Assembly (NCBI RefSeq): GCF_025420585.1
Contig: NZ_JAOEGB010000002.1
Coordinates: forward strand, 1 to 64,000
Source of the DNA: Planotetraspora sp. A-T 1434
GTDB lineage: Bacteria; Actinomycetota; Actinomycetes; Streptosporangiales; Streptosporangiaceae
Direction of reading: 5' to 3'
Length of the DNA stretch: 64,000 nucleotides
In this document: positions 1,404-29,901 of the stretch, one piece after another
Numbering within the stretch: position 1 is the stretch's first letter
Layout of the letters: each line of letters begins with the position of its first letter
The notes under the pieces: model-generated
The model's database searches: none
Told to the model about the DNA's origin: nothing
Seen by the model: the letters and a program-made list of their open reading frames with translations, nothing else
Translations under genes and position numbers: made by a program

Positions 1404-2402
1404 TTAGAACGACTCGTCGAAGCTGACGTCCCCCTCGACGGCGACCTGATAGGCGGAGACCCTGCGCTCGAAGAAGTTCGCCAGCTCCTGGACGTCCTGG
1501 AGCTCCATGAAGGCGAACGGGTTGGCCGTGCCGTACCGGATGGGCAGGCCGAGCCGGGCGAGCCGCTGGTCGGCGACGTATTCGAGGTACTGCCGCATCT
1601 GCTCCGCGCTCATGCCGTGCAGCCCGTCGCCGCAGAGATCGCGGGCGAAGGCCAGCTCGGCGGCGACCGCCTCCTCGATCATCAGGGTGACCTGCTCGCC
1701 GAGGTCGTCGTCGAAGAGGCCGGGCTCCTCGCGCCGCACGGTGTCCACGACGTCGAAGGCGAACTCCATGTGCATGGACTCGTCGCGGAACACCCAGTTG
1801 GTCCCCGTGGCCAGGCCCCCGAGGAGGCCGCGGGAGCGGAGCCAGTAGACGTAGGCGAAGGCGCCGTAGAAGAACAGGCCCTCGATGCAGGCCGCGAAGC
1901 AGATCAGGTTGAGCAGGAACCGCCGCCGGTCGTCTCTCGTCAGGAGGCGGTCGAGCCCGTTGATCGAGTCGATCCACCGGAAGCAGAACTCGGCCTTGTC
2001 CCGGATCGAGGGGATGTGCTCCACGGCGGCGAACGCCTTGGCCCGCTCGTCGTGGTCGGGCAGGTAGGTGTCGAGGAGGGTCAGGTAGAACTGGACGTGC
2101 ACCGCCTCCTCGAACAGCTGCCTGCTGAGATATAGCCGCGCCTCGGGGGCGTTGACGTGCTGGTAGAGGTTGAGCACGAGGTTGTTGGCCACGATCGAGT
2201 CACCGGTGGCGAAGAACGCCACGAGCCGGTTGATCAGATGCCGTTCGCCGTCGTTGAGCCTCGCCAGATCGGCCAGGTCGGAGTGGAGGTCCACCTCCTC
2301 CACGGTCCACGTGTTCCTGATCGCCGCGCGGAACCGCTCGTAGAACTCCGGATACCGCATGGGCCGCAAGGTCAGGTCCATTCCCGGATCGAGCAACATC
2401 AT
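1404..2402 (-). CDS. nrdB: Class Ia ribonucleotide reductase, beta (radical) subunit
   Basis: 332-residue R2 protein that carries the diiron-tyrosyl radical needed by NrdA to make deoxyribonucleotides. Visible ligands are D68 (TGDSI), E99 and H102 of the E-x2-H-x3-Y motif with the radical tyrosine Y106, E in CIEGLFF, and E and H of the later FRDESMHMEF motif. The presence of Y106 argues for class Ia rather than the tyrosine-less Ic type. I place the start at the ATG at 2402, which follows a good ribosome site (GGGAG, 5 nt spacing). A longer reading to 2474 would translate the intergenic repeat and is unlikely. It lies downstream of nrdA in the same direction, separated by 273 bp of repeats. 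Confidence 0.93.
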   Translation of the reverse strand: MMLLDPGMDLTLRPMRYPEFYERFRAAIRNTWTVEEVDLHSDLADLARLNDGERHLINRLVAFFATGDSIVANNLVLNLYQHVNAPEARLYLSRQLFEEAVHVQFYLTLLDTYLPDHDERAKAFAAVEHIPSIRDKAEFCFRWIDSINGLDRLLTRDDRRRFLLNLICFAACIEGLFFYGAFAYVYWLRSRGLLGGLATGTNWVFRDESMHMEFAFDVVDTVRREEPGLFDDDLGEQVTLMIEEAVAAELAFARDLCGDGLHGMSAEQMRQYLEYVADQRLARLGLPIRYGTANPFAFMELQDVQELANFFERRVSAYQVAVEGDVSFDESF

Positions 2403-2423
2403 CTTTTCTCCCTTCCTCTGGAG

Positions 2424-2669
2424 GTGATCATGCACAGGTTCCCGCGCATCCGGCATGACCTGCGCCGACCCCAATCGTGATCATGCAGAGAGTCCCGACC
2501 ATGCAGGTCTACCGGCGCACATGCCGTACGCGATCATGCACTGCCGGGGAGCTGCATGATCACGAATGGGGCAACCCCAGCGCACCCGGCGTTCGCGGGA
2601 AGGCGCGCATGATCACGCGCATGGTTGGCGCAGGTCAGCCGACCTTCGCGGGAATGTCTGCATGATCAC
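2424..2669. repeat. 53-bp phased repeat array A, mirror-symmetric (3 + 3 copies)
   Basis: Six copies of the 12-bp motif GTGATCATGCAC occur in the nrdA-nrdB gap. Three point rightwards (2424-2435, 2477-2488, 2530-2541) and three are reverse complements (2552-2563, 2605-2616, 2658-2669). Within each arm the step is exactly 53 bp. The two innermost copies face each other across 10 bp and can form a hairpin. Between motifs the 41-bp stretches are diverged but related: TTCCCGCG (unit offset 16-23) and TGACCTGCG (offset 33-41) recur. The outermost right copy ends 6 bp from the nrdA stop codon. No gene is visible here. See also 24883-24947 and 29755-29901. Confidence 0.92.
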
Positions 2670-2675
2670 GCGGAG

Positions 2676-4859
2676 TTATTGGCACGCTTCGCAGGTCTCG
2701 GGGTTTTCGAGGGAACAGGCGATCGCCTCGGCCTCGACGGCCGGCACGGACACCGTCGTCTGGGCGATCCGCGTCGCGGGGCGCGAACGGAGGTAATAGG
2801 TCGTCTTCAGGCCCGACCGCCACGCGTAGGCGTACATCGACGAGAGCTTGCCGATCGTCGGGGTGGCCATGAAGAGGTTCAGCGACTGCGCCTGGTCGAT
2901 GTACGGCTGCCGCGCCGCGGCCAGGTCGATGAGCGCCTTCTGCGGCAGCTCCCAGGCGGTCCGGTAGAGCGCCCGCAGCTCCTCCGGGATGCCGGGGATG
3001 TCCCGCACGGAGCCGTCCGCCCGCTTGATGGCGTCGCGCATGGCCTGGGTCCACAGCCCCCGGGCCTGGAGGTCACGGACGAGATAGCGGTTGACCTGGA
3101 GGAACTCTCCGGACAGGGTCTCCCGCTTGAAGACGTTCGACACCTGCGGCTCGATGCACTCGTAGCAGCCGGCGATGGACGCGATCGTGGCCGTCGGCGC
3201 GATGGCGATCATGAGCGAGTTCCGCAGGCCGGTCTCGGCGATCCTGGCCCGCAGCGCGGCCCACTCGCCGGGATGCCGCGGCGCGCAGGGGTAGTGGTCC
3301 AGGTGGAGCACGCCGTCCGAGGCCCGGGTCTCCTCGTAGGACGGATGGCGCCCCCGCTCCGCCGCCAGATCGGCCGACGTGCCGTACGCCGCGAGCGCGA
3401 TCTCCTCGGCGATCCTCGTCGACAGCGCCAGCGCCTCCGGCGAGTCGAACGGCAGGCGCAGCGCGAAGAACACGTCCGCCAGGCCCATCACGCCGAGACC
3501 GATGGGGCGCCACCTCCGGTTGGCGTCCTCGGCCTGCGGCGTGGGATAGAAGCCCAGGTCGATCGTCCGGTCAAGGAACCGTACGGCGGTGCGCACTGTG
3601 GCGCGGAGCCGCGCCCAGTCGAGATCCCCCGCGGTGAGGTGCGCGGCGAGGTTGACCGAGCCGAGGTTGCACACGGCCGTCTCGGCGTCGCTCGTCACCT
3701 CGAGGATCTCGGTGCAGAGGTTGGACAGGTGGATGACGTTGCGCGGCAGCGCGGTCTGGTTCGAGGTGCGGTTGGCGGCGTCCTTGAAGGTCATCCAGCC
3801 ATTGCCGGTCTGGGCGAGCGTCCGCATCATCCGGGCGTACAGCGCCCGCGCGGAGACCTGCCGGACGAACCGCCCGGAGTCCTCCAGCTCGCGATATTTC
3901 CGGTCGAAGTCGGCGCCCCACAGGTCGGTCAGCTCGGGCGCCTCCTTGGGGTCGAACAGCGACCACACCCCGTCGGCCTCGACCCGGCGCATGAACTCGT
4001 CCGGCACCCAGTTGGCCAGGTTGAGGTTGTGCGTGCGCCGGGCGTCCTCGCCCGTGTTGTCCCGCAGTTCCAGGAACTCCTCGATGTCCGCGTGCCAGGT
4101 CTCCAGGTAGACGCAGGCCGCGCCCTTGCGACGGCCGCCCTGGTTCACCGCCGCGACCGAGGCGTCCAGGGTCCGCAGCCAGGGCACGATGCCGTTGGAG
4201 AGCCCGTTCGTGCCCCGGATGAGGGAGCCCCGCGACCGGACCCGGGTCCACGAGACGCCGATCCCGCCCGCGTACTTCGACAGCCGCGCCACCTGGGCGT
4301 ACCTCTCGTAGATGCCCTCCAGCTCGTCGCGCGGCGAGTCGAGCAGGAAGCACGACGAGAGCTGCTGCCTGCGCGCGCCCGAGTTGAACAGCGTGGGCGA
4401 GCTGGGGAGATACGCCAGCGTCGACATCAGGCGGTAGAGCTCCGCCGCCTCGCCCACCGAGGACGACAGCCCGCAGGCCACTCGCAGGAGGAAGTGCTGG
4501 GGCCGCTCCAGCACGCCACGCGTGACCGGGTGCCGCAGCAGGTAGCGGTCGTAGACCGTCCGCAGGCCGAAGTACTCGAACCGGCCGTCCGCCTCCGGGT
4601 CGATCAGCGCGTCGAGCTCCGCCGCGTTGGCCGCCACGAATCCGGCGATCCCGTCGTGCAGGAGTCCCGCCTCGTGCGTCGCGGCGACCGACTCCGAGAA
4701 GCTCCGCACCCCGTGCGCGGCCACCTCGTCCGCGATCAGGCTGCCCAGCAGCCGAGCCGCGACCTTGGAGTTCTCCGGGTCGGTGACGACGCCGGCCGCC
4801 GCCTCCTCGATCGCCAGCCACCGGCTCTGCCGCGGATCCGCGATCGTCGTCTGTGTCAC
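2676..4859 (-). CDS. nrdA: Class Ia ribonucleotide reductase, alpha (catalytic) subunit
   Basis: 727-residue R1 protein that reduces ribonucleoside diphosphates together with NrdB. It shows the family core: the NLCTEI active-site cysteine region, 'NQGGRRKGAACVYLETWH', 'ATIASIAGCYECIEP' and the C-terminal CEAC redox pair that passes electrons from thioredoxin. The N-terminus runs from MTQTTIADPRQSRW into the R1 fold without the VxKRDG signature of an ATP cone, so canonical dATP feedback inhibition may be missing (inference). ATG start at 4859. The gene lies below a cobalamin riboswitch and two NrdR-like boxes. The stop codon (TAA, 2678-2676) is followed 6 bp later by the repeat array. Confidence 0.95.
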   Translation of the reverse strand: MTQTTIADPRQSRWLAIEEAAAGVVTDPENSKVAARLLGSLIADEVAAHGVRSFSESVAATHEAGLLHDGIAGFVAANAAELDALIDPEADGRFEYFGLRTVYDRYLLRHPVTRGVLERPQHFLLRVACGLSSSVGEAAELYRLMSTLAYLPSSPTLFNSGARRQQLSSCFLLDSPRDELEGIYERYAQVARLSKYAGGIGVSWTRVRSRGSLIRGTNGLSNGIVPWLRTLDASVAAVNQGGRRKGAACVYLETWHADIEEFLELRDNTGEDARRTHNLNLANWVPDEFMRRVEADGVWSLFDPKEAPELTDLWGADFDRKYRELEDSGRFVRQVSARALYARMMRTLAQTGNGWMTFKDAANRTSNQTALPRNVIHLSNLCTEILEVTSDAETAVCNLGSVNLAAHLTAGDLDWARLRATVRTAVRFLDRTIDLGFYPTPQAEDANRRWRPIGLGVMGLADVFFALRLPFDSPEALALSTRIAEEIALAAYGTSADLAAERGRHPSYEETRASDGVLHLDHYPCAPRHPGEWAALRARIAETGLRNSLMIAIAPTATIASIAGCYECIEPQVSNVFKRETLSGEFLQVNRYLVRDLQARGLWTQAMRDAIKRADGSVRDIPGIPEELRALYRTAWELPQKALIDLAAARQPYIDQAQSLNLFMATPTIGKLSSMYAYAWRSGLKTTYYLRSRPATRIAQTTVSVPAVEAEAIACSLENPETCEACQ

Positions 4860-24803: not shown

Positions 24804-24882
24804 CCCAGTCACCACCCCCGGCCCGGGCGGAATCCCCCTTCCCCGTCCGCAAGCCCCCGGGCCGGGGCCTCCCGCCTCCGGC

Positions 24883-24947
24883 GTGATCATGCACGGATTC
24901 CCGGATACAGGCAATGACCTGCGAAACCACCAGTCGTGATCATGCAC
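24883..24947. repeat. 53-bp phased repeat array B (two direct copies)
   Basis: GTGATCATGCAC is found at 24883-24894 and 24936-24947, exactly 53 bp apart, in the gap between the convergent GH28 and phosphotransferase genes. The 41 bp between them keep TTCCC at unit offset 16-20 and TGACCTGCG at offset 33-41, and end in TC, as in the first unit of array A. The second copy ends 9 bp from the phosphotransferase stop codon. No opposite-orientation arm is present here. Confidence 0.9.
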
Positions 24948-29754: not shown

Positions 29755-29901
29755 GTGCATGATCACCACTGAGGTCGTCGCGGCTCAGCGGGCGTTCATG
29801 GGAAACCGTGCATGATCACGCAGAGGGTGGACGCAGGTAGGGATGGCTCTGCGGGAGCCTGTGCATGATCACGCACGGGGAGGGGGTGCGTGATCATGCA
29901 C
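29755..29901. repeat. 53-bp phased repeat array C with a perfect 16-bp hairpin
   Basis: Three GTGCATGATCAC copies stand at 29755-29766, 29808-29819 and 29861-29872, each exactly 53 bp apart, and one inverted copy lies at 29890-29901. The last two are part of a perfect 16-bp inverted repeat: GTGCATGATCACGCAC (29861-29876) and GTGCGTGATCATGCAC (29886-29901) around a 9-nt G-rich loop. The array begins 6 bp after the stop codon of the CbiX-like gene and lies between convergent genes. TCCC and CTGCG submotifs in the intervening 41 bp match arrays A and B on the opposite strand. Confidence 0.93.

Follow-up and report, generated by a model that had tools for sequence, protein, structure and literature searches.

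Does the mirrored repeat array that separates nrdA from nrdB in Planotetraspora sp. A-T 1434 set the ratio of the two ribonucleotide reductase subunits, or is it DNA of a wider kind that has come to lie within this operon? A sequence-only reading of the window, the 64,000-nucleotide stretch analysed here (positions 1 to 64,000 of contig NZ_JAOEGB010000002.1), had proposed an element for transcript processing, attenuation or mRNA stability and, as the alternative, a tolerated insertion. From the comparisons described below, we consider it reasonably probable that the array is one copy of a non-coding, interspersed element family whose phased cores bind a putative protein. The array is probably a landing pad for such a DNA-binding protein and not a switch for nrdA and nrdB.

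Anatomy of the array and its family

Between the stop of nrdA (2676) and the start of nrdB (2402), two minus-strand genes, lies a gap of 273 bp that the array wholly occupies. The array is composed of six 12-bp cores, each within one mismatch of TGCATGATCACG, and the starts of successive cores are separated by 53, 53, 24, 53 and 53 bp. The mirrored 3+3 arrangement recognized earlier is borne out by these sites, three of which lie in each orientation, and so is the phasing of the arms, as all four within-arm intervals are exactly 53 bp. The central pair, previously placed 10 bp apart at 2530-2541 and 2552-2563, is actually separated by 12 bp, the earlier coordinates being off by one base. The features of the locus, together with two further arrays in the window, are as follows.

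1404..2402, minus strand: nrdB, class Ia ribonucleotide reductase small subunit, the downstream gene (relatives compared)
2423..2434, minus strand: left arm, outer core TGCATGATCACC (motif matches; position score 32.5)
2456..2464, minus strand: left arm, conserved mid-spacer block B CGCAGGTCA (sequence and unit consensus)
2476..2487, minus strand: left arm, middle core, exact TGCATGATCACG (motif matches)
2509..2517, minus strand: left arm, degenerate block B CGCCGGTAG (sequence and unit consensus)
2529..2540, minus strand: left arm, inner core TGCATGATCGCG (motif matches)
2541..2552, no strand: symmetry centre, 12 bp; the start-to-start distance of 24 falls in one of the classes that recur (14, 24-25, 31, 41-42 and 50)
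2553..2564, plus strand: right arm, inner core, exact TGCATGATCACG (motif matches)
2576..2584, plus strand: right arm, degenerate block B CCCAGCGCA (sequence and unit consensus)
2606..2617, plus strand: right arm, middle core CGCATGATCACG (motif matches)
2629..2637, plus strand: right arm, block B CGCAGGTCA (sequence and unit consensus)
2659..2670, plus strand: right arm, outer core, exact TGCATGATCACG, with the nrdA stop codon 5 bp away
2676..4859, minus strand: nrdA, ribonucleotide reductase large subunit, the upstream gene (sequence, and position before nrdB)
24882..24946, minus strand: second array, two minus-strand cores 53 bp apart, with convergent genes on either side
29756..29900, plus strand: third array, three plus-strand cores at 53 bp plus one minus-strand core, with convergent genes on either side

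Sites within two mismatches of the TGCATGATCACG motif number 19 in the window against 3.8 +/- 1.8 in shuffled sequence, a count that none of 100 shuffles reached. The enrichment extends across the 7.78-Mb host genome (70% G+C), which holds 1,120 cores with at most one mismatch (560+560 on the two strands) against 4 (1+3) for a reversed control, and 694 exact cores against none in the control. In the 717 kb of the genome that were read directly, 46 arrays of at least two cores were found; scaled by core counts, the whole genome would carry about 270. The arrays are unevenly spread: the first 400 kb of contig C1 hold about 0.33 cores per kb, the genome as a whole 0.14.

The most frequent layout among these arrays is three minus-strand followed by three plus-strand cores ('- - - + + +'), and many single-arm arrays are also present. 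Arms usually consist of three or four 12-bp cores, and the elements, which are non-coding, span about 220-450 bp. Among same-strand intervals of at most 80 bp, 93 of 101 in this genome measure 52-54 bp, and in a related genus labelled g23 the short intervals are exactly 53 bp in 100 of 111 cases. Five turns of B-DNA correspond to about 52.5 bp; a phasing of 53 bp thus approximates five helical turns and places the cores on one face of the DNA. The 53-bp unit contains three conserved blocks, namely GGGAA, the 12-bp core and, midway between cores, CGCAGGTCA (block B), which seems to resemble a shortened core. In the unit consensus, core positions are 84-100% conserved, while many spacer positions are degenerate and near background.

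The distance between the two innermost cores falls into discrete classes of 14-15, 24-26, 31, 41-42 and 47-50 in the host genome and in genera g23 and g57. Some of these classes differ by one helical turn, for which either descent or geometry could account. In the same three groups, the outward strand beyond the outer core is G-rich (e.g. GGGGTGGGG) as far as the neighbouring stop codon, and transcripts entering an array are therefore C-rich, a property that recalls Rho loading sites.

Distribution among relatives and placement beside genes

A search for paired cores, with A or T allowed at the variable core base, covered 347 genomes from 70 genera assigned to the Streptosporangiaceae by record titles. 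High counts were found in the Planotetraspora genome, in all five g23 species, in four g57 species and in two species of a genus labelled g68, whereas paired cores are scarce in another g57 species, G105. The distribution is thus patchy, with about four genera of soil bacteria as carriers among the 70 in the family. All other genomes with matches hold one or two paired cores each, which may be chance matches or relics, and in a further genus the paired-core matches at two sites of one genome (G114, C50:18816 and C73:175049) resemble relics of the family. We infer that g57 is Microbispora, because a locus of Microbispora sp. H11081 carries the same array variant. The core and its 5' tag read GGGAAnCTG-TGCATGATCACG in the Planotetraspora genome and CGAAnCTG-TGCATGATCACG in g23; the outer-end sequence in g57 is GCGACAAACTACAAGATCACG and the core in g68 is GCGAGTTTCTGCAAGATCACG. 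The genera thus differ in core sequence yet keep the 53-bp phasing, and this genus-specific drift would fit co-evolution with a putative trans-acting protein. No similar DNA was found in phages or plasmids, and an origin from either was discarded, the eight matches on viral contigs being chance pairs. No description of this repeat was found among the open-access papers that were searched.

The nrdA-nrdB gap itself measures between -4 and 87 bp in 66 of the 67 relatives measured, and the sole longer gap (223 bp, in Bailinhaonella) is without cores. The five g23 species and three g57 carriers likewise lack an array at this position, so that the comparison proposed in the sequence-only reading yields no tested relative with an array at this site. 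Because relatives, other carriers included, have an array-free gap, the nrdA-nrdB array appears to be a lineage-private insertion at the 3' end of nrdA. The proposal of an element specific to the nrd operon that sets the nrdA:nrdB ratio was abandoned on two counts, the roughly 270 arrays genome-wide, which adjoin unrelated genes, and the empty gaps of the relatives. The tolerated-insertion reading fits the data, although what was inserted is a member of a conserved family of elements. The array may still act locally on nrdB mRNA.

The placement of 67 arrays was assessed against genes called by a codon-usage script: 24 arrays occupy convergent and 39 co-directional gaps, 1 occupies a divergent gap, and 3 lie within a called gene. 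Divergent gaps are avoided, with 1 array although they make up 25.5% of the gaps that measure 60 bp or more (p=3e-7), and convergent gaps are enriched (37.5% against 17.8%, p=2e-4). The median distance of an array in a co-directional gap is 15 nt to the preceding stop and 75 nt to the following start. Single arms have no clear preference for one orientation with respect to the neighbouring gene (a tally of about 7 against 9).

RNA folding and selection on the cores

One role considered for the array is that of an nrd-specific RNA element, which would set the NrdA:NrdB ratio by attenuation, by processing or through a stabilizing hairpin. Its position between the two genes speaks for such a role, as does the folding energy of the gap RNA (-160.7 kcal/mol against -115.9 in shuffled sequences, z = -8.5). 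A strong fold is expected in any such array, since facing inverted cores of one motif must pair, and the question is rather whether the pairing of the two arms has been selected. At variable positions, two arms that face each other in an array resemble one another no more than arms taken from different arrays (0.347 for the same array against 0.365 for different arrays in the inner part, and 0.401 against 0.352 in the outer part), with a slight same-array excess beside the centre in the Microbispora variant (0.46 against 0.39). When right arms were swapped among 18 arrays, own-arm folding equalled swapped-arm folding (mean z 0.09), and neither test gave any sign of compensatory change maintaining arm-arm pairing. 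These results argue against an RNA-hairpin function, which was set aside. Positions 2300-2800 contain no intrinsic terminator (a G+C-rich hairpin followed by a T run), and the sequence matches no Rfam family at the gathering threshold, the match to MIR9666 being dismissed as far under threshold (24.7 against 88 bits). Given also the array-free gap of every relative examined and the similar arrays beside unrelated genes, an nrd-specific RNA element is very improbable.

What has been conserved in the arrays is instead their cores. In orthologous arrays of two g23 species, G226 and G228, the cores differ at 4.2% of bases against 19% for the next nine bases (p=7e-5), third codon positions differing at 10.6% between the same genomes; in the pair G022 and G227 the corresponding figures are 3.3% and 20.7% (p=1.4e-6). 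The rate of change in core bases is thus 4-6 times lower than in the bases beside them. Orthologous sites were picked by core similarity in at least one genome, which lowers the core figure somewhat, but this bias alone is unlikely to produce a 4-6-fold contrast. Dead copies decaying neutrally would accumulate changes in cores and spacers at equal rates, and the comparison of orthologous sequences thus shows cores kept by purifying selection and spacers drifting.

Spread, loss and likeness to known elements

Arrays at unlinked loci of the Planotetraspora genome, aligned in the same or in opposite orientation, match for up to 300 bp at 74-88% identity, and at nearly all ends the similarity stops 0-15 nt from the outermost core. 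Since whole arrays recur in this way with similarity ending at the outer cores, the array disperses as a unit. Sequence is shared by arrays of equal central-gap class (41-42, or 24-25), and in g23 the array at C1:98646 of G227 recurs at 86% identity on a second contig, where its flanks are unrelated. Within an arm, adjacent units are more alike than chance (0.49 against 0.35) and orthologous arrays differ by whole 53-bp units, from which it follows that arms lengthen through tandem duplication of units and shorten through their deletion. Orthologous arrays also persist between species of one genus (G022, G226 and G227), and transposition must therefore now be rare.

Loss is most evident in G228, in which 147 paired cores were counted; each of the remaining four g23 species has 571-719. 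Of 13 arrays in 400 kb of G226, G228 keeps 8, mostly shortened; one array, present between the same genes in G022 and G227, is cleanly missing in G228, where about 20 bp are left between two stop codons. These losses imply that arrays are dispensable one by one. At C1:28554 of G226, a pyridoxamine-oxidase-like gene is apparently inverted in G228 and flanked by single leftover cores, an arrangement that suggests that recombination between arrays may flip genes.

Transposase domains were searched for in 12 carriers and in a further 14 genomes from the family. In their habit the arrays come closest to the REP/BIME elements of gamma-proteobacteria (REP, BIME-1 and BIME-2), which are likewise found downstream of genes and in convergent gaps and to which gyrase, IHF and Pol I bind (PMC2817692, PMC3733652). 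Both occur as hundreds of extragenic copies in inverted arrangement, are biased to 3' ends and convergent gaps and have spread as mobile DNA, and the protein binding ascribed to REP/BIME has a putative counterpart in the arrays. The units differ, with 53 bp and a 12-bp core in the arrays against a palindromic hairpin of 20-40 bp tagged GTAG/CGTC in REP/BIME, and the unit consensus of the arrays contains no hairpin with either tag. Within an array arm all repeats run in one direction, away from the centre, whereas REP/BIME units alternate. REP/BIME are further accompanied by a RAYT (Y1/HUH) transposase, whose domain (Y1_Tnp, PF01797) was undetected in 7 of the 12 carriers, among them the Planotetraspora genome and the heavy carriers G022, G226 and G227; mobilization by RAYT was rejected, the domain having no association with the arrays. 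It is thus extremely improbable that the arrays are REP/BIME elements moved by a RAYT enzyme, and they are best regarded as BIME-like in habit yet not members of that group.

Miniature inverted-repeat transposable elements (MITEs) offer a second comparison, as they too are short and non-coding, with mirrored ends, many dispersed copies and empty sites in relatives. The arrays are discrete dispersed units, empty sites were seen in relatives, and the outer cores are inverted except in single-arm arrays. That the arrays are purely selfish MITEs of an undetected transposase, with the cores as its binding sites and no host role, is an explanation favoured by these discrete ends and empty sites, by the copies at unlinked loci and by the mirrored terminal sequences GCGACAAACTACAAGATCACGG of the Microbispora variant. 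Against it stands the slow change of the cores, which is unlike neutral decay after insertion, and in contrast to MITEs the arrays have phased internal repeats that are more conserved than their spacers, and commonly occur in single-arm form. No target-site duplication was demonstrated, the available empty sites in relatives being too diverged or else deletions, and no parent transposon was found in the 717 kb of the Planotetraspora genome that were read directly. No transposase gene was seen between facing arms. Those of two Microbispora-like species, G095 and G101 (loci L181, 3059-5849, and L182, 2877-5667), have the look of a composite element but were discounted as an autonomous parent, their single arms, 2,761 bp apart, enclosing the same two host metabolic genes, as were the facing arms around fdhD in the Planotetraspora genome, which also enclose host genes. 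A purely selfish element is, on balance, rather doubtful.

The ends of Tn7 and phage Mu carry about three protein-binding sites each, in mirrored arrangement. The arrays differ from these in their regular 53-bp spacing and in having no internal transposase. The Mu-type transposase C domain (PF09299) was undetected in 9 of the 12 carriers and was found in the other 3 and in a non-carrier; as it does not track the arrays, transposases of the Mu/Tn7 type were eliminated as their movers. The mycobacterial MIRUs are intergenic tandem repeats of similar unit length that also lie at gene junctions inside operons (senX3-regX3). Compared by description alone, the arrays have two opposed arms, far more loci, and a 12-bp core with degenerate spacers in the pattern of a DNA site.

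The explanation that we prefer, a non-autonomous interspersed family of phased protein-binding sites, can be put as a mechanism. A sequence-specific protein would lie cooperatively along one face of each arm and would pair the two mirrored arms into a nucleoprotein complex. This complex may have helped the element to spread, like the ends of a transposon with transposase bound to them, and/or the host may employ it at the 3' ends of genes, as with REP/BIME elements to which gyrase or IHF is bound. Several points count against this explanation: many arrays have a single arm, so paired arms are not always needed; the two candidate mobilizer families, Y1/RAYT and Mu/Tn7-type, both failed among the 12 carriers; no target-site duplication was demonstrated; and the persistence of orthologous arrays between species leaves transposition rare at present. 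A further alternative would leave mobility in the past and view the array as a bidirectional 3'-end element kept by the host, which when bound blocks or terminates transcription or absorbs supercoils between adjoining genes. Purifying selection on the cores, the strict 3'-end placement with near absence from divergent gaps, the suitability of mirror symmetry for convergent genes and the arrays kept at orthologous loci in G022, G226 and G227 are consistent with this alternative; the patchy distribution, the losses and shortening in G228, once cleanly between two stop codons, and the lack of a clear orientation bias among single arms weigh against it, and we regard it as a possibility of a minor order.

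Few interspersed families are known to combine such regular arms, measurable selection on their sites and strict placement at gene ends. An array beside nrdB should not be read as operon-specific control. With carriers and non-carriers in one genus and the losses in G228, gene content should lead to the putative binding protein, and an effect of the arrays on 3' ends should be testable by RNA-seq. It is tempting to speculate, though only tentatively, that the arrays constitute a lineage-restricted punctuation of gene 3' ends, in which a putative dedicated protein, co-evolving with the genus-specific cores, would form phased complexes at hundreds of gene ends and, by pairing arms, would insulate transcription units or organize the chromosome; the elements would then be mobile DNA that has been domesticated and whose sites selection now maintains.
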